Program-made: the position numbers and the translations under genes | The notes under the pieces: generated by a model | The model's database searches: none | Seen by the model: only the letters and a program-made list of their open reading frames with translations | Told to the model about the DNA's origin: nothing | Part shown: piece after piece, positions 1-52,162 of the stretch | How positions within the stretch are numbered: the first letter of the stretch is position 1 | Layout: each line of letters opens with the position of its first letter | Source of the DNA: a virus | Length of the DNA: 52,855 bases | IMG/VR virus record: IMGVR_UViG_3300036820_000025 | Location: 1-52,855 of that record | Reading direction: 5' to 3' (one strand)

Positions 1-47
1 TCGGTAAGCTGTTCAACCAATGGCCCACGCGCCGGGTGAAGGCATGA
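1..47 (+). pseudogene. 3' end of the gene at 52163, split by the contig ends
   Basis: Read in frame, these bases give the last residues of the protein encoded at 52163-52708 (GKLFNQWPTRRVK, then Ala and TGA; the right-hand copy ends in Gly). It is not a separate gene but the left side of the circular join. The stop TGA (45-47) overlaps the ATG at 44-46, so the two genes are translationally coupled across the join. Confidence 0.9.
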
Positions 48-194
48 GCGGGGGCAGGGCATGCAAGGACCCCACGCATAGGCCGGCGTGGGTCGTGCTC
101 GTGCGCGGCGGGAATCATTCAGCGTTCAACGGGTATCGTTGGCAGCCGAGCGCGTACAGCTCAGTGCATTGCCCATGCTGCCCGGCGAACTGGC
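1..194. repeat. Left copy of the terminal direct repeat
   Basis: These 194 bases recur at 52662-52855. By direct comparison they differ at only four positions (43, 49, 59 and 67 of this copy). The repeat means the contig is circular or terminally redundant, with a unique length of 52661 bp. Two of the differences change a residue (the last codon of the gene ending here, and residue 6 of the gene at 44) and two are silent. That pattern suits two natural variants better than random sequencing error. Confidence 0.95.
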
Positions 195-244
195 GCACCA
201 AGGCCAGTTATGTTGCCTCGTTGCCCGACCGGCCACCATATTGA
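44..244 (+). CDS. Small cysteine-containing phage protein, unknown function
   Basis: The product is 66 residues. Its centre reads GGNHSAFNGYRWQPSAYSS, followed by HCPCCPANWRTKASYV near the C-terminus. I recognise this pattern from small uncharacterised proteins of other proteobacterial phages, where the same place usually holds a CxxC-type metal-binding knuckle before WRTKAAYV. The ATG is chosen because it overlaps the preceding stop (ATGA). The N-terminal part (to residue 50) is present again at the right end of the window with one amino-acid change. A zinc-binding role is possible but not shown; function is unknown. Confidence 0.7.
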   Translation: MSGGRACKDPTHRPAWVVLVRGGNHSAFNGYRWQPSAYSSVHCPCCPANWRTKASYVASLPDRPPY

Positions 245-247
245 ACT

Positions 248-289
248 GTGACGCGGCGCACGGTATTCTGACGAGCGCGTCAGTACACT
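248..289 (+). promoter_or_regulatory. Rightward early promoter with palindromic operator
   Basis: It has a GTGACGCGGCGC box (248-259), an 8-bp spacer, the palindrome CTGACGAGCGCGTCAG (268-283) and a TACACT -10-like hexamer (284-289). The box-to-hexamer distance of 36 bp is the same as at the promoters near 13650, 46120, 47548, 49317 and 52150. Nothing at the -35 position resembles TTGACA, so an activator or a phage-specific mode of recognition is likely. It precedes the gene at 320 with about 24 nt of leader carrying a GGAG ribosome site. Confidence 0.75.
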
Positions 290-319
290 ACGCACACTGA
301 CTAAACTGGAGCTACTGAG

Positions 320-481
320 ATGGAAACGATTCGAGAAGATGTCACCAACGCGGTTGCGATGGCTCAGCTTGAGCTGACGCACAGCGAGGCCGCCAAGGCT
401 GACACCTACAATTACAAGCTCATCGAGAGCTACCGGAGCGACCCGGTAGAACTCGGCGAGTGGCCCGGCGACGCGCGATGA
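320..481 (+). CDS. Small hypothetical early protein (53 aa)
   Basis: The 53-residue protein starts METIREDVTNAVAMAQLEL and is probably one or two helices, rich in Glu and Ala. A GGAG site lies 9 nt before the ATG, directly downstream of the operator-bearing promoter at 248-289. Its TGA overlaps the ATG of the next gene. No family is recognised. It heads the 320-2357 operon, and its position behind an early-type promoter suggests early expression. Confidence 0.65.
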   Translation: METIREDVTNAVAMAQLELTHSEAAKADTYNYKLIESYRSDPVELGEWPGDAR

Positions 482-708
482 ACGCCGTCGCCACGCTCGC
501 GTCGCTGGCGCTCTACCTTGTCGGTGGATTCGTTGCTACCGCGGTCGTCGGGCACGTATGGGGCGTCCACGCCGGGGCTGAAGTGATGGCCGCCAATGCA
601 TTACTTGGCTTCGCGCTCATCCCCGGAATTCTCATCGGTCGCCCGCTCGTGCGATGGATCGCGCGGCGCTGGCGCTCACACAACTACAGGATACGCCGCT
701 ATGCGTGA
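478..708 (+). CDS. Small membrane protein
   Basis: The protein has 76 residues from the ATG at 478, which overlaps the previous stop (ATGA). Two hydrophobic segments are visible: about residues 4-29 (ATLASLALYLVGGFVATAVV) and about 38-58 (VMAANALLGFALIPGILIG). A basic tail follows (RRWRSHNYRIRRYA). This is an inner-membrane hairpin topology with a positive C-terminus. Its partner in the operon is a lipoprotein at 1168, so an envelope role is plausible. An in-frame ATG at 460 would lengthen it by six residues but lacks the coupling to the upstream stop. Confidence 0.65.
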   Translation: MNAVATLASLALYLVGGFVATAVVGHVWGVHAGAEVMAANALLGFALIPGILIGRPLVRWIARRWRSHNYRIRRYA

Positions 709-946
709 CACTCCGCATTGCATACATGGACAGTTAATCGGGCATGTCTGCCAGCAATGCCCGTTCGGCTTCGCAATTGCTCATGCTGATGGCATCGAGC
801 GTCACGAGTACGTATACACGGACGGTATCGTCGTGGCTGAGCATGCGATGTGGTCCGAGGACGAATTGCAGATGGCGAACGAACGCGCGCAGATTGCGAC
901 CGGCGGCACGTGGCGTTGGGAGCTGCGCGAAGGGTATTTGTACTAG
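701..946 (+). CDS. Hypothetical protein (81 aa)
   Basis: The ATG at 701 overlaps the end of the membrane-protein gene by 8 bp. The protein has an N-terminal HCIHGQLIGHVCQQC cluster (His/Cys, possibly metal binding) and a C-terminal SEDELQMANERAQIATGGTWRWELREG segment. No family is recognised. The tight overlap and shared strand mark it as part of the 320-2357 operon. Confidence 0.6.
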   Translation: MRDTPHCIHGQLIGHVCQQCPFGFAIAHADGIERHEYVYTDGIVVAEHAMWSEDELQMANERAQIATGGTWRWELREGYLY

Positions 947-958
947 GAGGCATTGAGA

Positions 959-1168
959 ATGACTGACGGTTTTGTGCCAATAAGTGAGCTGGCCCCGCGC
1001 ATCGGCGAGGTTGAGCGCATCGAACTCGCGGGACCGTTTGCATATCATTCGGTTGCGCCCGAGCACGTGGCGCACTACGAACAGATTGCAGCCGGCGCGC
1101 ACGCGCAGATGCTGCGCAGGCTGTGCATGGAAAATTGCGGGCGTCCGCAGCTTAGGAGGGTCAAGTAA
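959..1168 (+). CDS. Hypothetical protein (69 aa)
   Basis: It starts at ATG 959, preceded by TAGGAGG ten bases upstream, a strong ribosome site. The product is 69 residues (MTDGFVPISELAPRIGEVER...). No domain is recognised and it is probably soluble. Its stop TAA (1166-1168) shares its last base with the ATG of the lipoprotein gene at 1168, so the two are translated together. Confidence 0.6.
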   Translation: MTDGFVPISELAPRIGEVERIELAGPFAYHSVAPEHVAHYEQIAAGAHAQMLRRLCMENCGRPQLRRVK

Positions 1169-1725
1169 TGAGCACTCGTGAAATGAAACTGTTGTATTTG
1201 CTCGCACTCGTCACGTGCGCCGCGCTGTGCGTGGGGCTCGGCGGATGCGCCACCATAACGCCGGCTGACTCTACGGTCACGGCCGCAGCTACGGCCAGCG
1301 TTCCCACGGGAACAGAGAGCGCCACGCCCGAGCAGTCGGTCGTATTCCAAAATATAGTGAGCGAGGAAAAAGCCTCGATGTACGCCGAGGGCGCTTGGCT
1401 CGTGCTCGACGGCATCGACACTGCACAGACGATGCGGATAGCGCGCGAGCCCAACCGATTCCAAGAGAACGACCCGATTGCAGCGGCGCTCTATGGTGGC
1501 AAGCACCCCAACCAATACCGCGTGCTCGGCATCAACGTGGCGCTTGCATTCGCTCACACGCTTGTAACCTCGTGGCTCGACGATGAGGTATCGCAGCGCG
1601 AGATAAGCGACCCACACGGCACGCTCGGCGCATGGTATTGTGCGCGGGTTGCGTGGCACGTGGTCTCGATTCTAGGCTCGGGCAGCGCAGTGATTCACAA
1701 CTACAGCATTGGAGTTACGCCGTAA
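1168..1725 (+). CDS. Early phage lipoprotein
   Basis: The 185-residue protein begins MSTREMKLLYLLALVTCAAL and has a hydrophobic core ending in the lipobox LGGC (Cys about residue 27). It should be exported and lipidated at this Cys. A Thr/Ala/Ser-rich linker follows, with the palindrome that encodes VPTGT at 1300-1313, and then a folded domain (residues about 60-185) with several Trp and His. An AGGAGG site precedes the ATG. Phage lipoproteins made early often block superinfection or adsorption (for example Cor and Llp). That role is an inference from location and lipidation, not from homology. Confidence 0.7.
   Translation: MSTREMKLLYLLALVTCAALCVGLGGCATITPADSTVTAAATASVPTGTESATPEQSVVFQNIVSEEKASMYAEGAWLVLDGIDTAQTMRIAREPNRFQENDPIAAALYGGKHPNQYRVLGINVALAFAHTLVTSWLDDEVSQREISDPHGTLGAWYCARVAWHVVSILGSGSAVIHNYSIGVTP
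1300..1313. repeat. Dispersed palindrome GTTCCCACGGGAAC, copy 1
   Basis: One of six copies of GTTCCCRCGGGAAC found in the window (others at 8232, 21888, 37377, 43898 and 50729). It lies in the linker just after the lipobox of the lipoprotein and is read as Val-Pro-Thr-Gly-Thr. All six copies lie inside genes in the same codon phase. Confidence 0.8.
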
Positions 1726-2012
1726 TGTTTATGCGACGTGGAATAGGCGGCCGATTGGGTCCCGTCTCGATTCTCGGGGCTGCCCTCGCTATGGCGATGG
1801 GACAGCAGGTCATCCGCGTACAGCCTGCGCCGGAGCCCATCGAGGCGCCTTCGGCGCCCAAGCCTGCACGCAAGCGTCAGATTGGCACGCGCAAGGGGCG
1901 CCGGGCACTGCATGCAATGCGGCGTCGTGCCGAGCTGCAGCAGAAAAACCGCGGAAACAAAATAGCCGCGGTGCTTGCGAAGGGCAAGCACGGCCACGCA
2001 ATCTACGGATGA
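1725..2012 (+). CDS. Basic hypothetical protein with an N-terminal hydrophobic segment
   Basis: The ATG at 1725 overlaps the lipoprotein stop (TAATG). The 95-residue product has a short hydrophobic stretch (about residues 10-26, GRLGPVSILGAALAMAMG), a Pro-rich section (PAPEPIEAPSAPKP) and a very basic C-terminal half (KRQIGTRKGRRALHAMRRR and onward). The layout could be a membrane-anchored or processed basic protein. No family is recognised. Confidence 0.55.
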   Translation: MFMRRGIGGRLGPVSILGAALAMAMGQQVIRVQPAPEPIEAPSAPKPARKRQIGTRKGRRALHAMRRRAELQQKNRGNKIAAVLAKGKHGHAIYG

Positions 2013-2102
2013 GCCCCGGGGCAGCCCGCGCGCTCGCGTCGATGGCGAGCGACACCCCGCGGGAAATTCAGCGAACAGAAACGCCGCGCACGACAACGCG
2101 GC

Positions 2103-2357
2103 GTGCCCTTCGAGCTGACGTTCGCGCAGTGGTGGGAGCTATGGCAAGAGTCTGGAAAATTCGAGCTGCGCGCGACCAACGGCAAAGGCTACGTGATGCG
2201 TCGCTACGGCGACGAGGGCGCCTACCGCGTGGGCAATGTCTATATCGGCACGCACACCGAGAATGCCATCGAGGGTTGGCGCAATGGATTGTGCAGGGCT
2301 GCTATGATCCGCGATGCCCGCGAGCACGAGCGCCTATACTGCCCTGCCGATGATTGA
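2103..2357 (+). CDS. Conserved small phage protein with GDxGxYxxGNV motif; start possibly frameshifted
   Basis: The protein FELTFAQWWELWQESGKFELR...GDEGAYRVGNVYIGTHTEN is a pattern I recognise from small phage proteins, sometimes annotated as HNH-like. Function is not established. The only usable in-frame start is GTG 2103, but coding-like sequence continues upstream in the same frame (GKFSEQKRRARQRG) to the preceding gene's stop without any start codon. Frame 3 of the same stretch offers ATG 2042 (MASDTPR). A single-base indel in or near the CCCC run at 2055-2058, or a +1 frameshift, would join the two parts. Confidence 0.6.
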   Translation: MPFELTFAQWWELWQESGKFELRATNGKGYVMRRYGDEGAYRVGNVYIGTHTENAIEGWRNGLCRAAMIRDAREHERLYCPADD

Positions 2358-2386
2358 TTAAGCGCGCCAGAAATAGACGCGCAGCG

Positions 2387-2414
2387 GCCCGAGACGAACG
2401 CATTTCCGTCGGGC
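2387..2414. terminator. Hairpin in the convergent gap 2358-2461
   Basis: GCCCGAGACG and CGTCGGGC can pair with a bulged GA around a 10-nt loop. No T-run follows on either strand, so it would be a weak terminator at best. It sits between a rightward operon (ending 2357) and the leftward primase gene (ending 2462), where a terminator is expected. Nothing else was seen in this 104-bp gap. Confidence 0.3.
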
Positions 2415-2461
2415 GCCCATCAATACAAACGGCGCATTGCGCCATCTGAGCCCGACGCATA

Positions 2462-4756
2462 TCACTCGGTCTTAACCCATCGCTTCGCCTGCATGCCGTC
2501 AACCCGCATGTTACGGCTCTCGTACCCCAACTGTTTGAGGGTCCGCGCGACCCGCTTCTCGGCCTTGGCGTCCATGCGCTCTTTATTCATCAGCAGAGCA
2601 TCGCGCAGGACCTCAAACGCTGTGAAGGGGCGCGAGCAGGGGGCCGGCACAACCTCGCCATTAGGGGCCGCTGTGGGCGTTATGAGCCACTGCCCGATGA
2701 CAGTCTCCCACACGTCGCGCTGCTCATGGCGGGAGTGACGGCCTTTCGCAAGGCGCTCGGCCTCCTCGAACTCAACGCCCGGCAGGTCGAGCATTTTGCG
2801 CATTCGGTAGATGTGCGCGCCCTCGGCCCATAGTTGATTGCGGTCGCGCTTTATCAGCTCGCGTAGGATTTGCCCGATTTCCATTGGCAACCATCGGCGC
2901 TGCCCGGTCTCATCGAGCGGTAGATGCTGCTCTTGATTGGTCGTTGCAAAGAGCATCCCGCGACGAGCGTACCGAGTCGGTAGCGTCTGCCACTTCTCGA
3001 CCCACTCCTCGTGTGTGCGCGTAATAACGCGCTTGATGTGCTCGGCTGAACCTGTGGATACGTTGACCATCTCCGCAATTTCCGACACGAGCTTGCCCTT
3101 GAGCATGCGCTTAAAATTGTCGTCATCTTTGGATAGGTCGAGCCCATCGGTAAAAAACTCAGGGTCGGGCACCAATGATTTAAGCGCCGAGGATTTGTAT
3201 AGCCCTTGCTGCCGCGAGAAAAACGTCGGCACCATGTCGAGCTGACAACCGGGCTCGAAGATACGCGAGGCGAGCCCCGACCAAATGTAGCGGCTCACAG
3301 CCTTGGCGTACTCGTCGTCGGCTGCGCCGCAGTAGTCGGCCATGAACCTATCGACGCGCGGCACGCCATCCCACGCGAGGGAATCGAGCCACACCATTGC
3401 GCTGTCGAACTTCAGGCGATCCGCCACGAGCGCGAGCGCATCGCGCATCATGTCTTTGCCGATTGCCGCATAGCGCAGCTCACGTTCGAGCTTTTCACGC
3501 AGCGCAGTCATATCGTTGTCGGTTAGGCGCATCCAATTGGCGCCGCCGTCCCGCGAAATCATGATGCACCCCCGGAACTCATCGAACCCGACCATGGTCT
3601 GCGTCTGCGAGCCTAACGTCTTAACGAGATTGGGCAGGCTGGCCTCGGCGAGCCCCTTACCGTTGATAGTAAGGTTTGCCATCGTCGTGGCTGTGACCGG
3701 AGGCGGCGGGGGCTCGGCTCCGACAATCTCAACAGTTAGAGTAGTGCCGGTTACAGCGTCCGGCGTCCCGCTTAGCTGCGCCGATGAGGTCTCCGCGGGG
3801 GGTGCAGAAGACAACGGCAGGGACTGCGCGGGCTCAGCATACCACTGCGTTTGAGACGCGCAAGCCCGCAGTATCGTGCCCCGGAAGTAATCGGGCCGGT
3901 GCCACTTGTCGCGCTGCAGTCCCTCGCATTTCCACATCAGCCGGGCCATGCGTTCGCAATCGTTGCCGGTCCAAAACGCGAGATGATTCGCGAGCGCGAT
4001 GTCGGCGCCCGAGCGGTCCCACGCATCGTGTCCGTTCTGCGTGGGGAAGGCTCGCGACAGAACATCAACGTTGGCCGTCCACAGAGCCGCGAATGAGGCG
4101 CCCTTGCCGAACGCGGCCTGTGCTGAGGTCGAGCGCATGGCCCGGTCTAGGAGCGCCGTATCGTCTGCAGGGCCACGCCACGCGGCGACAGGCTTGTCGG
4201 TCCATTCGACGGTGCCGTCGGTTTCCTCGCGCGGCGGGAAGTAGGCGGCAAGGAACCGCAATAGAGTGCCGGTACAGTCGGTCAGCACTGAGCCCGAAAT
4301 ATGCTGCCCAAGAGCGATGAACCGCGCCTCGGTATAGCACTCGGCCCGGTAATCGCTGTTGCGCGTGCGATGGTCGGGCAGCTCGCCGTGATAAGCACCG
4401 ATGATATGACCGCCCGTGCCGCTGACACTGCGCTCGACGTAGGCGTCGGGGAACCACTGCAGGAACGCGGCCACGTGGGGCTGCCAGCCGCCGGAGGGCT
4501 CGACGCATTGGTCAAAGTCGATGGCGAATCGTCCTGACTCGCGCGTAATGACGATGCCCACGCCGTAGCCGGCGCCCCATTGCTCGGCCCACATCGCGGC
4601 CTCGGCCGGCAGCATGTGCGTAGCAGGGTCCTGCGCGTTGATGGCTTCGCCCGAGAGCGGGTCAATCGGTATCTTGTCCGTCTTGCCGTTCTCTCGGGGA
4701 ACGAGCTTGTACAGGACGAACAAGCGCCGGTTTGACAGCTCGTCAAGTATGCTCAT
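2462..4756 (-). CDS. Primase-polymerase/VirE-type helicase, probable replication initiator
   Basis: The protein has 764 residues. The N-terminal part looks like an archaeo-eukaryotic primase (prim-pol) fold: FAIDFD (residues 77-82, acidic pair D80/D82), SGTGGH (112-117) and RFIALGQH (145-152). A linker rich in Pro (about 305-355) leads to a VirE/VapE-type ATPase domain (about 440-640) with ATTNQEQHLPLDETGQRRW (604-622). The P-loop is odd: SRQQGLYKSS (514-523) replaces GxQGxGKST and lacks the first Gly. It should prime DNA and unwind the origin. The start overlaps the -10 of an antisense promoter; its own ribosome site is weak. The TetR-type gene lies 55 bp upstream. Confidence 0.85.
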   Translation of the reverse strand: MSILDELSNRRLFVLYKLVPRENGKTDKIPIDPLSGEAINAQDPATHMLPAEAAMWAEQWGAGYGVGIVITRESGRFAIDFDQCVEPSGGWQPHVAAFLQWFPDAYVERSVSGTGGHIIGAYHGELPDHRTRNSDYRAECYTEARFIALGQHISGSVLTDCTGTLLRFLAAYFPPREETDGTVEWTDKPVAAWRGPADDTALLDRAMRSTSAQAAFGKGASFAALWTANVDVLSRAFPTQNGHDAWDRSGADIALANHLAFWTGNDCERMARLMWKCEGLQRDKWHRPDYFRGTILRACASQTQWYAEPAQSLPLSSAPPAETSSAQLSGTPDAVTGTTLTVEIVGAEPPPPPVTATTMANLTINGKGLAEASLPNLVKTLGSQTQTMVGFDEFRGCIMISRDGGANWMRLTDNDMTALREKLERELRYAAIGKDMMRDALALVADRLKFDSAMVWLDSLAWDGVPRVDRFMADYCGAADDEYAKAVSRYIWSGLASRIFEPGCQLDMVPTFFSRQQGLYKSSALKSLVPDPEFFTDGLDLSKDDDNFKRMLKGKLVSEIAEMVNVSTGSAEHIKRVITRTHEEWVEKWQTLPTRYARRGMLFATTNQEQHLPLDETGQRRWLPMEIGQILRELIKRDRNQLWAEGAHIYRMRKMLDLPGVEFEEAERLAKGRHSRHEQRDVWETVIGQWLITPTAAPNGEVVPAPCSRPFTAFEVLRDALLMNKERMDAKAEKRVARTLKQLGYESRNMRVDGMQAKRWVKTE

Positions 4757-4759
4757 AAT
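4732..4759 (+). promoter_or_regulatory. Near-consensus sigma70 promoter, antisense to the primase start
   Basis: TTGACA (4732-4737), a 16-bp spacer and CATAAT (4754-4759) match the sigma70 consensus at 11 of 12 positions, the best promoter seen in the window. It points rightward, against the primase gene whose ATG is at 4756-4754. Transcription would start about 4764-4768 and meet the terminator at 4783-4813. A TGAC/GTCA inverted pair (4733-4745) resembles a shortened form of the genome's operator. Confidence 0.65.
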
Positions 4760-4765
4760 GGCCGG

Positions 4766-4813
4766 GTGCGTGCGGTGACATTGGGCGGGCTCTCACGGGC
4801 TCGCCCTCTTTTT
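4766..4813 (+). ncRNA. Predicted OOP-like antisense small RNA (about 48 nt)
   Basis: This is the stretch between the strong rightward promoter and the terminator. There is no room for a coding gene. The RNA would be complementary to the 5' leader of the primase mRNA and to the last bases of the TetR-type gene. The arrangement resembles lambda OOP RNA, a short terminated antisense transcript between a regulator gene and a replication gene. Existence and start site are predicted, not shown. Confidence 0.5.
4783..4813 (+). terminator. Intrinsic terminator, rightward
   Basis: GGGCGGGCTC (4783-4792) pairs with GGGCTCGCCC (4797-4806) through ten pairs (two are G-U) around the four-base loop TCAC. 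TCTTTTT follows. The T-run is on the + strand, so it stops rightward RNA although both flanking genes run leftward. This is why a dedicated rightward small RNA is proposed. Confidence 0.75.
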
Positions 4814-5108
4814 ACGCGGCCAGTATGCGCGCAGCTTTACGCTTCAGTGCCTCCGGGGCTTTTCTAGTTGGCAGGTAGTCGATTGCGAGCCCCTGCGCGA
4901 CGACTTCTAATACCTCGTGCTCGATGGCGTGGGCCATGATCGCGGCGCGCATATCCCGCATTGTGCCGAAATGGTACGACACAGTGCCCTCGACGCAGCC
5001 CGCGGCCTTGGCGATTTCAACGCGAAACACCCGCATAAACCCTTTCTGCTTCGACAGATTGACGGCCGCCTGCAATATGGCGTTTTTTAGGGCGACTGTG
5101 TTTTGCAT
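4812..5108 (-). CDS. TetR-type DNA-binding domain protein, candidate master regulator
   Basis: The protein has 98 residues. Residues 8-60 match the N-terminal helix-turn-helix of the TetR family (ILQAAVNLSKQKGFMRV, then EIAKAAGCVEGTVSYHFG, then MRAAIM). The usual C-terminal ligand and dimerisation domain of about 120 residues is absent; only a 38-residue tail remains. The gene's own upstream region carries the palindrome TTGACGTAGCCGTCAG, of which seven further copies lie at other phage gene starts. It is the only recognisable DNA-binding regulator here, so I propose it binds these sites and autoregulates. Whether it represses or activates cannot be told from sequence. Confidence 0.75.
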   Translation of the reverse strand: MQNTVALKNAILQAAVNLSKQKGFMRVFRVEIAKAAGCVEGTVSYHFGTMRDMRAAIMAHAIEHEVLEVVAQGLAIDYLPTRKAPEALKRKAARILAA

Positions 5109-5114
5109 GTGCGT

Positions 5115-5144
5115 ATCCTACTGTAGCGCTGACGGCTACGTCAA
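5115..5144 (-). promoter_or_regulatory. Leftward operator/promoter of the TetR-type gene
   Basis: On the minus strand the order is TTGACGTAGCCGTCAG (5144-5129), CGC, TACAGT (5125-5120), overlapping TAGGAT (5120-5115), then ATG at 5108. TTGACG and TAGGAT are 18 bp apart and could be -35 and -10, which would make the mRNA leaderless. Alternatively AGGA (5119-5116) is a ribosome site and the start lies further upstream. The block is almost the same as that at 44093-44064. Confidence 0.6.
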
Positions 5145-5608
5145 AGAGTGTCGGCAGTATTTGTGATGATAGCCCGGCCGCCCTGCGCGTTGACGAGGGC
5201 CGCCCATTTATTTTGTGCCATGTCTTCAAGGCTGTTAGATGGTTTCCAATTACGGCGCTTGCATTCCACGCTGAGGAATTGCGCGACGACACGCCCCACC
5301 ATCTCGGGCCGTATCACGAGCGGCTGCCATCCGATGAGATCCCCCGATTTAAACTCGTCGCCAAGCTGCTTAGAATCATTGGCGAGCCCGTACCGCACGA
5401 ACGTTCCCGAAGCCATTTTGCCGGCGCCGCGGTTGTTGCGGAATAGATAGCGGCCTGACTTTGCAGCCGCTAAGCGTACCTCAGACTGCACCCGCGCCTC
5501 AAGGTCGTTATCATCAGCCGGCGCGATGTACTGCGCAGATTCGCACAGCTCGCGCAGCGCCTCGGGCGGTATCTTCCATTTGAGCGCCCATTCGATTAAT
5601 GAAGCCAT
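5141..5608 (-). CDS. VRR-NUC domain nuclease
   Basis: The protein has about 155 residues. It carries the VRR-NUC signature order: VQSEVRLAAAKSGRYLFRNN, then VRYGLAND, then KSGDLIG (acidic residue), then FLSVECKRRNW (the E-x-K of the PD-(D/E)xK core), and a C-terminal QGGRAII segment. The family is a compact endonuclease fold thought to act as a Holliday junction or flap nuclease in phage replication. The start is taken as ATG 5608 because an upstream ATG at 5623 increases overlap with the DUF1643 gene and has no ribosome site. It ends within the TetR-type gene's promoter region. Confidence 0.85.
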   Translation of the reverse strand: MASLIEWALKWKIPPEALRELCESAQYIAPADDNDLEARVQSEVRLAAAKSGRYLFRNNRGAGKMASGTFVRYGLANDSKQLGDEFKSGDLIGWQPLVIRPEMVGRVVAQFLSVECKRRNWKPSNSLEDMAQNKWAALVNAQGGRAIITNTADTL

Positions 5609-6093
5609 CGGGTAGGGTTCCATAGTTGGGGTTCGAGGTCGCCCGGCAAGTACAGCGGGTGCTGCGGATTGCCGGCCTTAGTGACGCGCATTGAGTAGAT
5701 GGGGCCAAGCGGGTGCATAGTGTTGACCGCGCGCTGCGCGAGGTCCTTGTGCGCCTTGTCGCCCCATCCGCAGATGACTTTCGCAGCGTAGGCGATAGCG
5801 TTCACGAGCCACGCATCATTGGTAGATAGCACGTGTTCGGGCGGCACCGTGGCGAGCTTGGGGTCAGTCGAGCGGAACGGATTTGTGTTGACCACGACCA
5901 TAGCCGCATAACGCCAATCGAGCGTATATTGCCACAAGCGCCGCACCGTGGGGTCGTCTTGCTCCTCGTCGGCTGTGCTCGGATTGTTGAGCACCCACGC
6001 AATAAAGGACATGCCCGGTTGCCACGAGTCGATGCAACGGCCGAGTTGCATACGGTACAGCCGGTCGGGGCTGATGACTGCCCAGCGGCGCAT
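5596..6093 (-). CDS. DUF1643 family protein
   Basis: The protein has 165 residues and the family hallmark LNNPSTADEEQDDPTVRRL near residues 35-53, then VVVNTNPFRSTDP and CGWGDKA. DUF1643 proteins occur in many phages and bacterial genomes; their biochemical role is unknown. The gene lies between the nuclease gene (overlap about 13-28 bp, depending on the nuclease start) and a small gene that ends at its own first base, so it is part of one tightly coupled replication operon read leftward. Confidence 0.85.
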   Translation of the reverse strand: MRRWAVISPDRLYRMQLGRCIDSWQPGMSFIAWVLNNPSTADEEQDDPTVRRLWQYTLDWRYAAMVVVNTNPFRSTDPKLATVPPEHVLSTNDAWLVNAIAYAAKVICGWGDKAHKDLAQRAVNTMHPLGPIYSMRVTKAGNPQHPLYLPGDLEPQLWNPTRWLH

Positions 6094-6350
6094 TAGAACG
6101 GCACCGCGTCAGATTTTGAGTACCAATCGCGCATAGCCTGCGCCACGTCGAGCGCATCATAAAATTTCTGCCGCTGCTCGACGGTCATTGCAAGCCATCC
6201 GCCTTTACTCTCGCGGTACTGCGTGGCCCACATGATGACTGCGGCCGGTGCCGCCGGGTCGTTGGCGCGCAGCACGAACACGGGCTCGTCAAGCTCGGCG
6301 CGATTCCAGCACGAACGCGGCTCGATGATGTTGTCGGCTTTGGTGCTCAT
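6093..6350 (-). CDS. Conserved small phage protein (85 aa)
   Basis: The product contains RSCWNRAELDEPVFVLRANDPAAP and a C-terminal helix (TVEQRQKFYDALDVAQAMRDWY). I recognise the RSCWNRAxxxEPVFVLRAND pattern from small uncharacterised proteins next to helicase or nuclease genes of other phages. No function is known. The ATG overlaps the helicase stop, and its own stop overlaps the DUF1643 start. Confidence 0.7.
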   Translation of the reverse strand: MSTKADNIIEPRSCWNRAELDEPVFVLRANDPAAPAAVIMWATQYRESKGGWLAMTVEQRQKFYDALDVAQAMRDWYSKSDAVPF

Positions 6351-8029
6351 GCGGCAGCCTCGACTACGTTATGTTTGTTGAGCTGTTCGACGATACGCGC
6401 CTGCAGCGCCTCGGCCTCCGGGCGGCCGAGCGTGCGCGCGGTTTCAACATCAACCCCGAAGGTCAGATAAAACCGCTTTTGCGCCTCTCGGTCGCTCTCG
6501 CCGACGAGGGTACGCCAACCGCCCCACAGTCGCATGGCGTCGCGTAGGATGGCCTGCGCGCGCTGCCGCTCGGCGTGGGCACGCTGTATGTACGCTGGCC
6601 CGAACATCACGCCATCAATCCGGGCAATCTCGCCGCGGATGCGCGCCAATACTGCAGGGTCCAATTCCACGAGGTCGCCATCGACCGCCTCGGGCGTGCC
6701 TCGGCCGCCGGGCATTGGGACCTCGGCGCCGCAGTATGGGCAGCACGTGCGAAAGCGTTCATAAGGCTGAGCGCATGATATGCAAACCCGCAGCGGTATA
6801 GCGTCGCTGTTGCCTCGTGATTCACGGGCCGGGCGCCGGTCGAGGCTGTATTGTTGCGGGACATCGGGCAACCCGTGATAGATGCAGTTGCCCACGTGGT
6901 CGATAATGATTGCCTTGGGTTTCGGGCTCGCGGCGATGATTGCGAGCCGTTCCGCGTCGGTGAACTCGTGCAGGCGATGGTCAAAGCCCGGCGCCATCAC
7001 ACGCAGCGAGCGGCCGAACTGCTGCGCATAGAGCTGAAACGATGCCGTCTTGCGCACCATCGAGACAACCTCGATTGCTGGCACGTCTACGCCCTCGCCG
7101 AGACAGTCCACGCTCACGAGCTGCAGCAACTGCCGCGCGCGAAATTGCGCCATGAGCTGCGCGCGCTTACCTATCGGCGTTTTGGCCGTGATGATTTCCG
7201 CCGGCACGCCGGCCGCGTTGTACCCGATTGCCAACTCGCGCGCGGCTTCGATGTCTACCGCGAACGTTACGCCAAGTCGTCCGGCGGCCACTTTGAGATA
7301 ATTTTTGACAACATCGCCAACGATGCGGTTTGACTTGTGAGTGACTGCTCTAAGCTGTGGCATAGAATAGTCGCCAGTGTTCCCAATCGAAACGCTGCTA
7401 AAGTCGATGTCAGAGCTAGGGCACAAAAGACGGTAATCAGTGAGATAACCTCGGTTGATGAGTTCGCGGCACGAAGGGCCAATAATGAGGCGATCAACAA
7501 GCCCGTCAGCGCTGCGCCCGAGACCACTGCCATCAGCGCGTATCGCGTGAGCCGTCGGGAAAAGGCCGCGAGCGTTGGGGAACAACTGCATTGCAGTAGC
7601 CCATTTATTGCCTTGTACGACGTGGTGTCCCTCGTCGATGACGACGAGTCGGACGGCAGCGAGCCATCGGTCTGCGGGGTCGTGTCCTGTGAGGGTATCG
7701 ACTCCGGCGACGCGCACGTCGGCTCGGTAGTGGTAGCTAGAGTGTCCGTGTGTTTCATGCTCGGCCCTCACAATCTGCTGAATAACAGGTTTCGGTGCGA
7801 TGATTCCGTGCGGAATGCGTTCGCGGTTCAGCGCGAGCGCGGTTTGCGCGACAAGCTCTTGTCGGTGCGCTATGGCGACGGTTGGCTGTTGGCAATCTGA
7901 GATGATGCTGCAGAACGTAACCGTTTTGCCCGAGCCCGTGGGCATTACAGGCATGACGTTGTAGACATTCGGCTCAGACCATGCGGCGTACACCGCCGCT
8001 TTTACGTTCTGTTGGAAGTCTCGAAGCAA
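6347..8029 (-). CDS. SF2 DEAD/DEAH-like helicase
   Basis: The protein has 560 residues. Motif I is MPTGSGKT (29-36) and motif II is DEGH (132-135), followed by a second RecA lobe with LGEGVDVPAI and motif VI QQFGRSLRV. A four-cysteine cluster (CISC...CCPYC) follows in the C-terminal third. The architecture fits phage ATP-dependent DNA or RNA helicases of the UvsW/RecG-like group, acting on replication or recombination intermediates. The start is TTG 8029, chosen because AGGGG lies seven bases upstream and the family usually begins with LRDYQ. It heads the leftward replication operon. Confidence 0.85.
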   Translation of the reverse strand: MLRDFQQNVKAAVYAAWSEPNVYNVMPVMPTGSGKTVTFCSIISDCQQPTVAIAHRQELVAQTALALNRERIPHGIIAPKPVIQQIVRAEHETHGHSSYHYRADVRVAGVDTLTGHDPADRWLAAVRLVVIDEGHHVVQGNKWATAMQLFPNARGLFPTAHAIRADGSGLGRSADGLVDRLIIGPSCRELINRGYLTDYRLLCPSSDIDFSSVSIGNTGDYSMPQLRAVTHKSNRIVGDVVKNYLKVAAGRLGVTFAVDIEAARELAIGYNAAGVPAEIITAKTPIGKRAQLMAQFRARQLLQLVSVDCLGEGVDVPAIEVVSMVRKTASFQLYAQQFGRSLRVMAPGFDHRLHEFTDAERLAIIAASPKPKAIIIDHVGNCIYHGLPDVPQQYSLDRRPARESRGNSDAIPLRVCISCAQPYERFRTCCPYCGAEVPMPGGRGTPEAVDGDLVELDPAVLARIRGEIARIDGVMFGPAYIQRAHAERQRAQAILRDAMRLWGGWRTLVGESDREAQKRFYLTFGVDVETARTLGRPEAEALQARIVEQLNKHNVVEAAA

Positions 8030-8042
8030 ACAATATCCCCTG

Positions 8043-8072
8043 TTGACGGCGCCGTCAGGTTAGCAGTACAGT
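8043..8072 (+). promoter_or_regulatory. Rightward promoter with operator, divergent region
   Basis: TTGACG (8043-8048) is the left half of the palindrome TTGACGGCGCCGTCAG (8043-8058) and can serve as -35. With an 18-bp spacer, TACAGT (8067-8072) is the -10. It drives the gene at 8115, with about 35 nt of leader. A regulator on the palindrome would block the -35 directly. It lacks the GTGAYGC box of the other rightward sites. Confidence 0.6.
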
Positions 8073-8085
8073 TCGCCCCGTTCAA
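8057..8085 (-). promoter_or_regulatory. Possible leftward promoter of the helicase operon
   Basis: On the minus strand TTGAAC (8085-8080), a 17-bp spacer and TAACCT (8062-8057) lie just upstream of the same palindrome, which would then cover the start site. Both hexamers are poor matches. The position, upstream of the AGGGG and TTG start at 8029, is the main support. Confidence 0.35.
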
Positions 8086-8114
8086 GCCTCACACCGCACA
8101 TCGGAGCACCAATA

Positions 8115-9074
8115 ATGCGCTTGGAAATTGACACCACATGCGACCATTCACAGCAGGAGCTGCGCGCCGCCGCCGCATTCCTGTTGTCGCTCTCGGGCGA
8201 TATTACGCTCGAAGCTCTCGACGCCGCACGAGTTCCCACGGGAACACCGAAGCCCCCTGAAGTTCCCCGGCCGCCGCGCGCTCCTGCCGAGCGTCCTAGC
8301 GACCCCACGCCGCCGACTGCTCCGAGTAGCGAGCCGTGGCCGCCCGCGCCGCCGCCGGCCGCAGAGTCGAACGTGTTGCCTTTTCCGACGCCGCCCGCGC
8401 CTGCCGTTGTTGCGGCGCCCCCGGCGGCTGCGTCTACCCTGATTGCCCCCACGGCTGGCGAGAGCGTGCTTGCCCCCACTGCGGGAGCTACGGCCGCTGT
8501 CCCTGCTGAGTATGACAGCGCCGGCATGCCGTGGGACGCGCGCATTCATCAAAAGGCCAAGAGCAAAAAGAAAGACGGTACTTGGAAACTGCAGAAGGGC
8601 ATCGACATGAACCTAGTTCAGTCGGTGACTGCTGAGCTTGCCAAGGCAAAGCTCGTCGCTGCCGCCCCGAACGCCGCGATTGCCGCCGCGCTCGCCGCTA
8701 CTCCTACGGTCTCGGCTCCCGTGCCGCCCCCGCCGGCAGCGGTGACAGCCGCGGTGCCACTTCCACCAAGCGGAAATACCTTGCCTCTGCTTCCGCAGTC
8801 GAATGGAGCCGCCGATAACGGAGTGCCTGTGCCGCCGCCTCCCGCGTCTGTGCCTGTTCCGCCAGTCGCCGCCGTTGGGGGCGTACCTTCACCATCAGAG
8901 GTCATCGTAAAGCGATGCGTTGATGCGACCGTCGCAAAGAAACTCACGCCGGTTGAAGTTCGCGACCTGCTACTGCGCCACGGATGCCCGGGGCTGCAGA
9001 TGCTCTCGCAGATGCCTGACCTTGTGCCGGCAATCAGCGCTGAGCTTGACATTATCCTCGCGGCGAAGGGCTAA
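8115..9074 (+). CDS. Pro/Ala-rich phage protein with PWDARIH motif
   Basis: The protein has 319 residues. It has an N-terminal segment (1-40), a long Pro/Ala-rich linker, a conserved block EYDSAGMPWDARIHQKAKSK with a following KKDGTWKLQKG (about residues 135-166), a second Pro-rich linker and a helical C-terminus (about 270-319). The SAGMPWDARIH...DGTW block is one I know from phage genes located just upstream of DUF2800/DUF2815 genes; its function is unknown. A GGAG ribosome site precedes the ATG. The palindrome at 8232-8245 marks the N-domain/linker border (VPTGTPK). A role in the replication complex is inferred from neighbours. Confidence 0.7.
   Translation: MRLEIDTTCDHSQQELRAAAAFLLSLSGDITLEALDAARVPTGTPKPPEVPRPPRAPAERPSDPTPPTAPSSEPWPPAPPPAAESNVLPFPTPPAPAVVAAPPAAASTLIAPTAGESVLAPTAGATAAVPAEYDSAGMPWDARIHQKAKSKKKDGTWKLQKGIDMNLVQSVTAELAKAKLVAAAPNAAIAAALAATPTVSAPVPPPPAAVTAAVPLPPSGNTLPLLPQSNGAADNGVPVPPPPASVPVPPVAAVGGVPSPSEVIVKRCVDATVAKKLTPVEVRDLLLRHGCPGLQMLSQMPDLVPAISAELDIILAAKG
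8232..8245. repeat. Dispersed palindrome GTTCCCACGGGAAC, copy 2
   Basis: Read as Val-Pro-Thr-Gly-Thr, followed by Pro-Lys, at the border between the N-terminal segment and the Pro-rich linker of the 8115 protein. The copies at 37377 and 43898 share the flanking GTPK and the bases CTTCGGT or TTTCGGT. Confidence 0.8.
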
Positions 9075-9077
9075 GCG

Positions 9078-10226
9078 ATGGCAGGCGCACACGCACGCAT
9101 CGCGCCCTCGGGGCTCGCCCTCACGGTTGCCTGCCACGCTTCAGTGCAGTTGCAGGAAGCCGCGGGCGAGCAGCCCGAGACCGACGAGGAGGCCGAAGGC
9201 ACAGCGGCCGACCTCGTGGCGCAGGCATACGCTGCCGGCGACCCGTGGCCGATTGGGCATAAGTTTGAGAGCAGCGGCCGGCAATGGGCGGTCGATGTCG
9301 ATATGGTGAACGGCGCGAAACTGTTCGTCGAGACGCTGCGCGGCGAGGGCGGCGACGTGCGCCTGCACGATGGCGTGCGCTGTTCAGCCATTCACGAAAC
9401 GGACTGTTGGGGTACGCCCGACGGTTGGCGCTTTTTCCCGCGTGGCACTGGCCCGCAGCAAACACCCGTGTTGCGTGCTGTCGAGTACAAGTACGGGTTC
9501 CGTTATGTCGAAGTGTTCGAGTGTTGGCAGCTCATCGCTTACGCCGTGGGCGTCATTGAGCGTCTGCAGCTCGACGACCAAAATTTGATACTCGAACTCG
9601 TCGTCGTGCAGCCGCGCTCGTACACCATCGAGGGCAAGGTGCGAACGTGGCGCGTCTCTGCGACCGATATTCGCGCGCTCGTCAACATCGCCGAGCATGC
9701 TGCCCACGAGGCGCTAAAGCCGAACCCAACAGCAACAACCGGCGCCCATTGCATCGACTGCAAGGCGCGCCATCTCTGCACGACTCTGCAGCGCTCGGCG
9801 GCCAATCTCGTGGACTACAGCGCGCAGGCCGACGCAAACGAGCTGAGCGCGGATGCGATGGGCTCGGAGCTGCACATTCTCGACCAAGCAATGCAGCGGC
9901 TCGAAGCCCGCCGCACGGGGCTCGCAATCCGCGCCGAGGCCGCGCTGCGTGCTGGCGTGCAGGTCCCGTTCTATGAGCTGAAACCCGGTCGGTCCAATCT
10001 CAAATGGTTGGAGACTGTGAAACCCGAAGACATTGCCGCGCTCGGCGATATACTAGGGGTCACCGTACGCAAGCCGCTCGAAGTTTTCACGCCGCGCCAG
10101 TGCATTGACGCCGGCATCGGCGAGGACCTTATCAACAACTACGCCAGCCGACCGGCCGCCGGGCTCAAGCTGGCCCCCGTTTCCATGACCGCAACCCGTA
10201 AAATGTTTGGAGCTAATCGCACATGA
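9078..10226 (+). CDS. DUF2800 family, PD-(D/E)xK nuclease-like protein
   Basis: The protein has 382 residues. It starts with the APSGLALTVACHASVQL block typical of DUF2800. The catalytic-type residues are in CWGTPDGW and VEYKYG (D...ExK), and CIDCKARHLC resembles the cysteine cluster of Cas4/RecB-like exonucleases. The C-terminal part holds GRSNLKWLETVKPED and KPLEVFTPRQC. Such proteins are thought to act with the neighbouring DUF2815 protein in phage DNA recombination or replication. It is 3 bp after the previous gene and overlaps the next start by 4 bp. Confidence 0.85.
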   Translation: MAGAHARIAPSGLALTVACHASVQLQEAAGEQPETDEEAEGTAADLVAQAYAAGDPWPIGHKFESSGRQWAVDVDMVNGAKLFVETLRGEGGDVRLHDGVRCSAIHETDCWGTPDGWRFFPRGTGPQQTPVLRAVEYKYGFRYVEVFECWQLIAYAVGVIERLQLDDQNLILELVVVQPRSYTIEGKVRTWRVSATDIRALVNIAEHAAHEALKPNPTATTGAHCIDCKARHLCTTLQRSAANLVDYSAQADANELSADAMGSELHILDQAMQRLEARRTGLAIRAEAALRAGVQVPFYELKPGRSNLKWLETVKPEDIAALGDILGVTVRKPLEVFTPRQCIDAGIGEDLINNYASRPAAGLKLAPVSMTATRKMFGANRT

Positions 10227-11182
10227 GCACCGCACAGCCAAAGAATTTCGTTTCAGATACCGGCCGTATCCTATGGGGCGACCTGTACGCACCGCAGACC
10301 GAGGACATCGACGGCAATCCGTTGTTGATTAAAAACGGCCCCGATGCTGGCAAGCCCACGCAGCGCTATAACTTCGGCCTTGGGGTCGAGAAGCGCCCGG
10401 GGGAGACGCATTGGTCACAGTCGAAGCTCGGCGCCGAGATTTGGGCCGCGGGTTATGCCGCATTCCCACATCTACAGGACCCGACCACGCGGCAGCTACC
10501 GGAAACCTTCGCGTGGAAAGTCACCGACGGCGACTCGACCAAGCCCGGCAAACCGTTTCGTGGCAAGCCCGGCCGCAGACCCTGCGACAAAGAGGGCTAC
10601 CCGGGGCATTGGGTATTCAGTTTCAGCAGCTCCTACCCGCCCAAGGTCGTGAACGCCGACGGCTCGGCTTATATCCTCGACAAAGACGCGGTGCAGCCGG
10701 GCGACTACGTGCAGGTTGCCGGCAGCGTGTCGGGTAACTCGGGCTCGAATCCGGGGGTGTACCTGAATCACAATTTTGTGTCGCTGCAGTACAAGGGCCA
10801 GCGGATCATGAGCGGCCCCGACCCGTCTGCATTGGGCTTCGGCAGCGGCGCCAAGCCGGCCGGATACCTGCCCCCCGTGGGCGGTATGGCGGCCCCGCCT
10901 GCCGCCGTCCCTGCGGCTACTCCGGGCGCCCCCGTGCCTCCGCCGGCAACCCCGGCGGCCCCCGCCGCCCCGGCGCCTGCTCCGGTGCCCGTGGTGCCCT
11001 CTGCGACGTTCATTCCGCCAGCCCCGGCCGGTGCTGCCCCGCCGCCTCCGGCTGCTCCTGCAGCGCCTCCGGCGCCCGTGGGGCCGCAGATGACACCCAA
11101 GGCGGCCGGGATGAGTTACGACGCATTCCGCTCGAAGGGCTGGACCGACGAACAGCTCCGCGCAAACGGGTACATGGTCTGA
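10223..11182 (+). CDS. DUF2815 family, predicted single-stranded DNA-binding protein
   Basis: The protein has 319 residues. The N-terminal 210 residues form the DUF2815 domain (GRILWGDLY, RYNFGLGVEK, GYPGHWVFSFSSSYPPKVV and YVQVAGSVSGN), an OB-fold-type protein associated with phage replication. A Pro/Ala-rich tether of about 80 residues follows, then a conserved tip MSYDAFRSKGWTDEQLRANG, which may be a protein-interaction tail like that of bacterial SSB. It overlaps DUF2800 (ATGA). Confidence 0.85.
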   Translation: MSTAQPKNFVSDTGRILWGDLYAPQTEDIDGNPLLIKNGPDAGKPTQRYNFGLGVEKRPGETHWSQSKLGAEIWAAGYAAFPHLQDPTTRQLPETFAWKVTDGDSTKPGKPFRGKPGRRPCDKEGYPGHWVFSFSSSYPPKVVNADGSAYILDKDAVQPGDYVQVAGSVSGNSGSNPGVYLNHNFVSLQYKGQRIMSGPDPSALGFGSGAKPAGYLPPVGGMAAPPAAVPAATPGAPVPPPATPAAPAAPAPAPVPVVPSATFIPPAPAGAAPPPPAAPAAPPAPVGPQMTPKAAGMSYDAFRSKGWTDEQLRANGYMV

Positions 11183-11198
11183 CGAGCCGCGGGGCTCG
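11183..11198. other. Short GC hairpin after the DUF2815 stop
   Basis: CGAGCC (11183-11188) pairs with GGCTCG (11193-11198) around GCGG. It follows the DUF2815 stop directly with no T-run, so it may protect the 3' end or pause the polymerase. It opens the 209-bp gap before the DNA polymerase; the rest of that gap to 11297 is GC-rich without an obvious gene. Confidence 0.4.
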
Positions 11199-11297
11199 CC
11201 CGAGCGGTCGGCTGTCCCTGCCGAGGGATACCGCGACGGCGAGCCCTGCCGCATGCGTTCGGCCCGTGCGCGGCGCCCGGACGACGCGCGGGCGAGC

Positions 11298-11377
11298 CGG
11301 GCGGGTCGGATCAGCTCGGGGCGGGAGTCATAACCCCGCCCTCGGGGCGCACATCCCCGCGACCCGTTCGTTTTTTT
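11298..11377 (+). terminator. Branched intrinsic terminator or structured RNA before the DNA polymerase
   Basis: An 11-bp helix (11298-11308 with 11360-11370, two G-U pairs) closes a three-way junction. It holds hairpin GGGGCGGG/CCCGCCCT (11318-11325 with 11335-11342) and hairpin CGGGG/CCCCG (11343-11347 with 11355-11359). Seven T follow at once (11371-11377). The outer helix plus T-run is a strong terminator. The enclosed branches are unusual and suggest a regulated or processed RNA end. The polymerase start TTG lies 15 bases further on. Confidence 0.65.
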
Positions 11378-11391
11378 AAGGATCTGCTGAA

Positions 11392-13617: not shown

Positions 13618-13655
13618 CGCAGGTCTCGACAAACTGACGCGGGCGTCAGTATGAT
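13614..13655 (+). promoter_or_regulatory. Rightward early promoter with palindromic operator
   Basis: GTGACGCAGGTC (13614-13625), an 8-bp spacer, CTGACGCGGGCGTCAG (13634-13649) and TATGAT (13650-13655). It gives the helicase gene at 13684 its own promoter inside the replication block. The GTG of the box overlaps the polymerase stop codon region. TCGACA at 13626-13631 is a fair -35 here, unlike in the sister sites. Confidence 0.75.
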
Positions 13656-13683
13656 GGCTCCAAGATAAAACGGAGTCTCAGCC

Positions 13684-15144: not shown

Positions 15145-15422
15145 ACACCTACGACCTGCCCGTCATCGACTACGGCAAGCGCCGTCGCAAGGCGCTTAAA
15201 TGGCTCGGCGTCCGCTACCTACTTGCTCGGCCCGTTCCGCGTCGCGAGCCAAGCTCGGTAATGCGCCGTAGTGTCGAAGTCACCGTCAACGAGCATGACG
15301 CCCTCGGGGCCGAGTGCTCGGGCGTCGGAGCGCCACGCGGGGCCACCGAACCAATGCACGGCAAGGTAGAACATCTGCGCTTGCGCGCGGGAGCAGCCGT
15401 CGGCAATCATCGCCGCTCGTAG
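15141..15422 (+). CDS. Small protein with RRRKALKWLGVRYLLARPV motif, tail overlaps DUF1353
   Basis: The ATG overlaps the helicase stop (ATGA). The first 40 residues (MNTYDLPVIDYGKRRRKALKWL and onward) look like a genuine small phage protein. Similar proteins normally end soon after this block. Here the frame runs on to 15422 and is antisense to the 3' half of the DUF1353 gene (15219-15674), giving an unnatural tail. The gene may have lost its stop at a deletion junction where the rightward and leftward blocks now meet. Function unknown. Confidence 0.45.
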   Translation: MNTYDLPVIDYGKRRRKALKWLGVRYLLARPVPRREPSSVMRRSVEVTVNEHDALGAECSGVGAPRGATEPMHGKVEHLRLRAGAAVGNHRRS

Positions 15423-15674
15423 AAACTCATCGTGGTTCGCTTTGTCGAGGAGCCCATGAGCCCGGGCGGATGCGTACAGCCAATCGTGGCCGGTCGCTGC
15501 GCGCCGGCTGCGGCCGTTAGAGCCAATGTGTAGCGGCGTCGAGGCAAGGTCAGTACGAAAGCCCACGGGTACCGTAATGCGGCCGAACGTGGGGTCAACC
15601 CATATGAGCGGCTTGTCGAGGACCCACACATTCGGTACGGGGTCCTCGCGCAGCTCAAGCTCGGTCAGGAACAC
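15219..15674 (-). CDS. DUF1353 family protein
   Basis: The protein has 151 residues with the family pattern FRTDLASTP, then GHDWLYA, then FLRAAMIADGCSRAQAQMFYLAVHWFGGPAW. DUF1353 genes are common in tailed phages near lysis genes; the role is unproven, with a peptidase-like fold suggested for some members. The start is GTG 15674, two bases after the preceding stop. It is the last gene of the long leftward late block and its 3' end overlaps the convergent gene at 15141. Confidence 0.8.
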   Translation of the reverse strand: MFLTELELREDPVPNVWVLDKPLIWVDPTFGRITVPVGFRTDLASTPLHIGSNGRSRRAATGHDWLYASARAHGLLDKANHDEFLRAAMIADGCSRAQAQMFYLAVHWFGGPAWRSDARALGPEGVMLVDGDFDTTAHYRAWLATRNGPSK

Positions 15675-15676
15675 CG

Positions 15677-17024: not shown

Positions 17025-17040
17025 TTTGAAGGGCCAACTA

Positions 17041-19855: not shown

Positions 19856-19857
19856 GG

Positions 19858-44055: not shown

Positions 44056-44063
44056 GGGTGCGG

Positions 44064-44093
44064 AGCCTACTGTAACGCTGACGCTGCCGTCAA
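44064..44093 (-). promoter_or_regulatory. Leftward operator/promoter inside the TerL operon
   Basis: On the minus strand: TTGACGGCAGCGTCAG (44093-44078), CGT, TACAGT (44074-44069), then AGG and ATG 44055. It is nearly the same block as in front of the TetR-type gene (TTGACGN4CGTCAGCGYTACAGTAGG). TTGACG and TAGGCT, 18 bp apart, could be -35 and -10. It would place the Mu F-like gene and those after it under the same control as early genes. Confidence 0.6.
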
Positions 44094-46083: not shown

Positions 46084-46125
46084 GTGATGCAGTCGTGTTG
46101 ACGCCGCCGTCAGTTTTGGTATCGT
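46084..46125 (+). promoter_or_regulatory. Rightward promoter with operator, divergent from TerL
   Basis: GTGATGCAGTC (46084-46094) lies 36 bp upstream of TATCGT (46120-46125), the same geometry as other rightward sites. The palindrome TTGACGCCGCCGTCAG (46098-46113) is shifted 6 bp upstream here, so its left half can serve as -35 (TTGACG, 16-bp spacer). It drives the small genes from 46155. Confidence 0.7.
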
Positions 46126-47515: not shown

Positions 47516-47553
47516 CGCGGGTCCTAGAAAACTGACGCGCGCGTCAGTATACT
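47512..47553 (+). promoter_or_regulatory. Rightward early promoter with perfect palindromic operator
   Basis: GTGACGCGGGTC (47512-47523), an 8-bp spacer, CTGACGCGCGCGTCAG (47532-47547, a perfect 16-bp inverted repeat) and TATACT (47548-47553, 5 of 6 to consensus). This is the best copy of the element. It drives the genes from 47592 to 48977. Confidence 0.8.
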
Positions 47554-47591
47554 GGCCTCACTGAATAACGGAACGGATGAGGTCTCGCACC

Positions 47592-52105: not shown

Positions 52106-52113
52106 GGTGGAAT

Positions 52114-52155
52114 GTGATGCAGGTCATGGAATCCTGACGCGGCCGTCAGTATAGT
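52114..52155 (+). promoter_or_regulatory. Rightward early promoter with palindromic operator
   Basis: GTGATGCAGGTC (52114-52125), an 8-bp spacer, CTGACGCGGCCGTCAG (52134-52149) and TATAGT (52150-52155). The ATG at 52163 lies seven bases after the -10, so a leaderless mRNA is predicted. Confidence 0.75.
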
Positions 52156-52162
52156 GCAGCAC

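Follow-up and report, generated by a model that had tools for sequence, protein, structure and literature searches.

A protein of 98 residues with the DNA-binding domain of TetR, encoded in the replication region of a phage, raises the question of what such a small regulator could control and by which DNA site. The original prediction had seen in it an autoregulated master regulator without a ligand domain, acting as a constitutive timer. The window, by which we mean the whole stretch of DNA analysed, is a virus record of 52,855 bases with a GC content of 62%, and the gene (here tetR, its product mini-TetR) stands in it between a nuclease-like gene (5141-5623) and a gene for a VapE-like primase/helicase, all of them leftward. 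The primase neighbourhood had been predicted, and the primase gene is indeed directly downstream (Table 1).

Gene, predicted fold and family of mini-TetR

The Pfam scan identified TetR_N at residues 11-57 (E 9.3e-08; 32.2 bits against a curated cut-off of 24), in agreement with the DNA-binding domain expected there, and found no second Pfam domain besides it; the protein also matches PHROG 8723, of unknown function, over residues 8-97 (E 8.9e-27). The AlphaFold2 model, obtained with an 11-row alignment, is compact (mean pLDDT 94.6, pTM 0.85), with helices 4-22, 29-36 and 40-47 corresponding to TetR_N and followed by helices 50-63, 67-75, 79-83 and 86-97. The absence of a ligand domain was thus correctly foreseen, but the description of the remainder as only a short tail does not hold, given four predicted helices past residue 50 and conserved residues in the tail in the family alignment. 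The large C-terminal ligand-binding/dimerisation domain of the TetR family is missing and, with 98 residues and no second Pfam domain, the product is therefore a TetR_N-domain protein and not a full TetR-type regulator. When the model was compared with solved structures, 787 of 919 aligned chains reached a Z of at least 5 and the best were TetR-family proteins with Z up to 12.1 (96 residues, rmsd 3.8), a value under 13 and as such no more than suggestive for helical proteins. Foldseek alone gave no match to solved structures at E <= 0.001, and among predicted viral proteins two matches, of 97 and 166 residues, gave a query TM-score of 0.95. As modelled, mini-TetR consists of the TetR DNA-binding domain and a small helical tail of its own, and has no ligand domain.

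Homologues were found by tblastn in 59 phage records, and in 95, 38 and 86 with other members as query, the lists overlapping; the recorded hosts of carriers are Klebsiella, Acinetobacter, Pantoea, Edwardsiella, Vibrio and Shewanella. In KpV52, MSW-3, vB_KsaM-C1, CWW26 and Scuro the gene lies in the replication region with the helicase and next or close to the primase, and record annotations of family members read 'TetR family transcriptional regulator' (often) or hypothetical protein. Longer proteins with two domain hits occur in Scuro, SppYZU01 and the L002 and L003 records (L and G numbers are our handles for loci and records). Tandem two-domain mini-TetRs of about 166-174 residues, perhaps covalent dimers, are encoded at 21424-21924 in L006, 38065-38565 in L028 and 3034-3555 in L002, the model of the last (pLDDT 42 without an alignment) being left unused. 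By profile search the same family includes the 'putative TetR' genes of Jedunavirus and the tetR-like genes of phiPLPE, CP-T1 and 138, noted in 2012 (Comeau et al., PMC3391216); the main text of that article only names the tetR-like gene and does not contain the words promoter, operator or palindrome. No description of operators or a regulon of these phage TetR proteins was found in the open-access literature searched. The novelty originally attributed to this regulator consequently does not extend to the gene itself, which is widespread, annotated and already named, and is retained for its operators and regulon: a known family of TetR_N proteins without the second domain of the TetR family, whose regulon appears to be previously undescribed.

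A palindrome repeated in promoter-like places of the window

The palindrome predicted in the tetR upstream region is present. The 16-mer at 5129-5144, which reads TTGACGTAGCCGTCAG on the minus strand, is an imperfect 16-bp palindrome whose arms form TGACG-N4-CGTCA 21 bp upstream of tetR, and this motif has 8 exact copies in the window (Table 1) where about 0.1-0.16 are expected. Among 1000 first-order simulated sequences it was absent in 905, occurred once in 90 and twice in 5, two being the maximum, and in the window the TGACG/CGTCA arms gave 8 copies at gap 4, and every other gap from 0 to 12 gave 0. When any palindrome with 5-bp arms is allowed, some GC-rich one attains 6-11 copies in simulated sequences, and the significance therefore rests on the sequence-specific expectation, the spacing, the placement and the relatives. 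The general form TGAC-N6-GTCA has 9 sites in the window, 6 of which are noncoding by crude gene calls, noncoding DNA making up 5.8% of the window; the site at 1266 is coding and lacks the TGACG arms, and those at 44079 and 52135 overlap called ORFs that may in truth start further in.

Table 1. Positions of the mini-TetR gene, its downstream neighbour and the candidate operators in the window.
Feature	Positions	Strand	Description
Mini-TetR (proposed regulator)	4812..5108	-	ORF with ATG start, 98 aa, TetR_N
VapE-like primase/helicase gene	2462..4756	-	Next gene downstream of tetR; also its neighbour by synteny in several relatives
Candidate operator	269..282	+	Directly before -10-like TACACT; upstream of ORF 320-481
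Candidate operator of tetR promoter	5130..5143		TGACG-N4-CGTCA; overlaps stop codon of upstream nuclease gene 5141-5623
Candidate operator TGACGGCGCCGTCA	8044..8057		Divergent promoter region, helicase 6347-8029 (-) / ORF 8115-9074 (+)
Candidate operator	13635..13648	+	Directly before -10-like TATGAT; upstream of ORF 13684-15144
Candidate operator TGACG-N4-CGTCA	44079..44092	-	-35 TTGACG, -10-like TAGGCT; start of leftward ORF 43240-44139
Candidate operator	46099..46112		Between ORFs 44314-46059 (-) and 46169-46690 (+); TTGACG + TATCGT rightward
Candidate operator	47533..47546	+	Directly before -10-like TATACT; upstream of ORF 47577-48059
Candidate operator	52135..52148	+	Directly before -10-like TATAGT; upstream of ORF 52154-52708

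The copies fall into two layouts. In layout 1 (5130 and 44079 on the minus strand, 8044 and 46099 on the plus strand) the outer arm reads TTGACG, a candidate -35 hexamer, and lies 16-18 bp from a -10-like hexamer. For tetR the outer arm on the minus strand supplies the candidate -35 (5144-5139), which a spacer of 18 separates from the -10 TAGGAT (5120-5115); this candidate -10 ends 6 nt before the ATG (window 5109-5120), so that a leaderless mRNA is possible. In layout 2 (269, 13635, 47533 and 52135) the palindrome ends one base before the -10-like hexamer given in Table 1. An element like TGTGAYGCRGGTC stands at 247-259, 13613-13625, 47511-47523 and 52113-52125, a fixed distance before the four layout-2 operators; its TGAYGC starts 22 bases before the palindrome, in promoters with a weak -35, and it is a possible second operator or activator site. 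Homologues of ORF 43240-44139, at whose start one of the layout-1 sites lies, are found in 8 of 10 palindrome-rich genomes.

By p-value the leading palindrome of the window is not TGACG-N4-CGTCA but GTTCCC-NN-GGGAAC, with 6 copies (1300, 8232, 21888, 37377, 43898 and 50729) and 0.007 expected. It was set aside as not belonging to the mini-TetR system, its copies lying inside ORFs, with VPxGT codons where the translation was read.

Occurrence and placement of the palindrome among relatives

A Megablast search with positions 1-20000 of the window found no phage record, which implies that the sites have not been carried along by DNA similarity to the phages considered here. TGACG-N4-CGTCA is nevertheless the top palindrome with 5-bp arms in L007, L011 and L013 (10 copies each, 0.11-0.18 expected), and related forms are TGACA-N4-TGTCA in Acinetobacter phage Scuro (5 copies, 0.03 expected) and TTGAC-N6-GTCAA in Edwardsiella MSW-3 (5 copies, 0.10 expected). 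The general form was counted in 41 tetR-bearing sequences, comprising the window, 21 named phage records (L004-L013, L023-L033), 15 IMG/VR records (G001-G013, G015, G016) and 4 IMG/VR loci (L018-L020, L041), with L001, a piece of the window, omitted; G003-G005, the records of L014-L016, are probably copies of KpV52, JD001 and PEAT2 and are still included in the 41. The yardstick was the reversed pattern for IMG/VR records (0-2 per record and strand) and arm frequencies for the others.

TGAC-N6-GTCA is clearly in excess in 23 of the 41, with up to 31 copies per genome: the window (9), L006 (5), L007 (14), L008 (12), L011 (14), L013 (15), L023 (13), L024 (16), L026 (9), L028 (2, with 0.03 expected), L032 (13), G003 (14), G004 (14), G005 (17), G008 (14), G009 (7), G010 (31), G011 (5), G012 (11), G013 (24), G015 (16), G016 (29) and L041 (8). 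No excess was seen in the other 18 (L004, L005, L009, L010, L012, L025, L027, L029, L030, L031, L033, G001, G002, G006, G007 and L018-L020), the cut being set by eye with L030 (3 copies, 0.77 expected) and L005, L010 and L025 (2 each, 0.8-1.2 expected) as the nearest misses. The genomes of about 50 kb that contain L037, L040 and L044 (G010, G013 and G016) thus stand several-fold above the window. As a spacing control, eight relatives (L036-L041, L043 and L044) have 4-10 copies at gap 6 and mostly 0 at other gaps.

Among the carriers without an excess are Psp6 (L030), the L002 and L003 records, and phiPLPE (L033), which had been chosen as a blind test and contains 1 TGAC-N6-GTCA against 0.61 expected. 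Scans of divergent regions and of k-mers yielded no convincing counterpart operators in these palindrome-poor carriers. Repeats of AGCCTATGCA in L004 (9, on both strands) and of GTTACGTAAC in L010 were observed and could be other regulatory sites. A rule linking Gly in the recognition helix to the presence of the palindrome was rejected, given that L022 and L043 have Ser together with sites and Psp6 and phiPLPE have Gly without an excess.

A scan with the window helicase retrieved ten relatives at 54-70% identity, eight of which carry both tetR and the sites (seven searched as whole records, L041 in its locus). The other two, L042 and L045 (helicase 54% and 56% identical), have no tetR in the whole record by family alignment or Pfam TetR_N and 0 palindrome sites in 42,387 and 31,264 bases, respectively, either of which may be a fragment. 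Their loci retain homologues of the polymerase, SSB, exonuclease, helicase and nuclease, and no homologue of the VapE-type primase was found in them, so tetR is not the sole correlate of the sites and the primase is a second one; with the window primase as query, no relative was found in viral_contigs. The outside controls lambda and Mu contain 0 and 1 sites. In the TetR protein tree, carriers with sites and carriers without them are for the most part separated by a single split, L022 and L030 each falling with the opposite group, and the lineages are therefore not fully independent tests. Conservation of the sites across such divergence would nonetheless be hard to explain without selection.

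For the placement of the sites, -10-like hexamers were scored after each palindrome in both orientations. Over 164 orientations from eight sequences they peak at a spacer of 17-18 from the TTGAC arm (offsets 8 and 9), with 28 against 1.9 expected; just these 28 have a good -10 at the right distance, and by this measure many sites are consequently without a clear promoter. In a fresh set of eight loci the hits numbered 11 of 105 at spacer 17-18 (1.0 expected) and, at offset 1, the layout-2 position, 5 of 105 (0.6 expected). Some palindrome sites lie inside ORFs according to crude gene calls. In KpV52, 4 of the 9 promoters annotated by the depositors contain a site. Of 19 palindrome-rich sequences inspected, 16 carry the palindrome just upstream of tetR (the window, L006, L007, L008, L011, L013, L023, L024, L032, L036, L038-L041, L043 and L044), and it is absent from that place in L022, L026 (CP-T1) and L028; the 19 do not include L014-L016, L030, which shows no excess, or L037, whose tetR stands at the far end of its record. 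The divergent helicase region holds a site in the window, L006, L007, L008, L011, L013, L023, L024 and L026. Jedunavirus has sites also at the starts of small leftward gene clusters between structural genes, an arrangement that would suit a shut-off of early genes. A stretch of roughly TTnATCGaCAA, perhaps a shared transcript start, follows the -10 of operator promoters in L007 (44368), L013 (44747), L008 (39680) and L022 (17032 and 17523).

Proposed repression by mini-TetR and competing readings

Because the palindrome occurs in many promoters of this phage and of many distant carriers of the gene, and is missing from the two tetR-less relatives, the 98-residue protein probably silences a group of promoters of its own phage. 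We consider it likely that mini-TetR is an autorepressed global repressor of phage promoters without a ligand domain, providing a delayed shut-off like that of Cro or Ner. It would bind the 14-16 bp (T)TGACG-N4-CGTCA(A), we infer as a dimer, at its own promoter and at seven other promoter-like places in the window. Bound there, it would obstruct RNA polymerase in both layouts, the one in which an arm serves as the -35 (layout 1) and the one in which the palindrome occupies the spacer as far as the -10 (layout 2). The host sigma70 polymerase would transcribe the palindrome promoters first, mini-TetR would accumulate and would then shut down the replication and accessory operons together with its own gene, a delayed negative feedback under which its own level would rise and then flatten. 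Of the master regulator first proposed, both the autoregulation and the multi-promoter role thus find good support in comparative sequence, through placement, conservation and co-occurrence, and a constitutive timer without ligand would fit the anatomy of the protein.

Mini-TetR could, however, bind the palindromes and activate some promoters as a dual regulator, in the manner of LuxR of Vibrio harveyi, a TetR-family protein reported as activator and repressor (PMC2628434). The weak -35 and the TGTGAYGCRGGTC-like upstream element, a possible activator seat, shared by the promoters at 269, 13635, 47533 and 52135 would suit this, as would the recurrence of the offset-1 -10 in relatives, but we find it unlikely, since the layout-1 palindrome covers a near-consensus -35 that needs no activator, the layout-2 palindrome lies between -35 and -10 in the position of a repressor, and the TGTGAYGCRGGTC-like element by itself shows no excess in the window (10 matches at <=2 mismatches, 6.6 expected). 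We give little credence to the binding of the palindromes by another factor, whether the VapE-like primase, the product of ORF 8115-9074 or a host TetR-family protein such as RutR, which, like mini-TetR with its candidate site, has a palindrome of about 16 bp (PMC10891134). Palindrome-rich genomes do have in common the primase, helicase, nuclease, exonuclease, SSB and ORF 8115-9074; primase homologues are present in 10 of 10 palindrome-rich and 2 of 9 palindrome-poor genomes and are likewise not found in the loci of the two tetR-less relatives, and the corresponding figures for ORF 8115-9074 are 9 of 10 and 0 of 9. Against these correlations stands the placement of the sites, which occupy operator positions in promoters, at a fixed distance from the -10, and occur at tetR itself. 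In addition, L042 lacks any site although a weak homologue of ORF 8115-9074 (E 3.4e-4) is retained there, the Pfam scan detected no HTH domain in that ORF family, and the six recorded host genera speak against a host protein. Among the shared proteins scanned in Pfam, no transcription-regulator domain was found except in tetR.

A different use of the same repressor, for immunity or pseudolysogeny rather than as a lytic shut-off timer, seems improbable to us, even though CP-T1 (L026), reported as temperate in behaviour with none of the known lysogeny genes (PMC3391216), carries mini-TetR and 9 sites (1.25 expected) and has 'induced lysogen' as its record source. Phage 138 carries the gene yet is listed as lytic (PMC3391216), no integrase was found among the window proteins scanned (Pfam, PHROG), and CP-T1 is without a palindrome just upstream of tetR. 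The most far-reaching version, in which a one-domain ligand-free TetR would be the genome-wide governor of a large set of phages without mutual DNA similarity, with the -35 as operator half-site at as many as about 30 promoters, and would act in phages without known lysogeny genes, CP-T1 among them, as the immunity repressor of a lysogeny-like state without a cI-type repressor or integrase, is a speculation in which we place slight confidence.

Read as a lytic shut-off repressor, mini-TetR would work as lambda Cro and Mu Ner do, a small self-limiting repressor of early promoters without an inducer. Cro is a small lytic repressor of early transcription, Ner is noted as such in the Mu record, and both belong to HTH families different from TetR; they have few operators, whereas mini-TetR has sites all over the genome. 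With the TetR family (PF00440; TetR, QacR, RutR) it shares the N-terminal TetR_N HTH, the TetR-like predicted fold and, at the level of sequence, a palindrome of about 16 bp within the promoter of its own gene, but it is phage-encoded, has 98 residues without the large C-terminal ligand/dimer domain, and has about 5-31 sites per genome in palindrome-rich carriers where members of that family control one or two targets nearby. The palindrome that is in excess in the window is also in excess in CP-T1 and Jedunavirus.

Carried by phages that infect Klebsiella, Edwardsiella, Pantoea, Acinetobacter and Vibrio, a gene usually just named 'TetR family regulator' thereby gains a likely target in DNA, together with a list of the promoters concerned and a simple mechanism. 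If the proposal is true, mini-TetR would be a minimal natural repressor without an inducer, a testable candidate for the timing of transcription in phages without cI or Cro, and a candidate explanation for the temperate behaviour of CP-T1.
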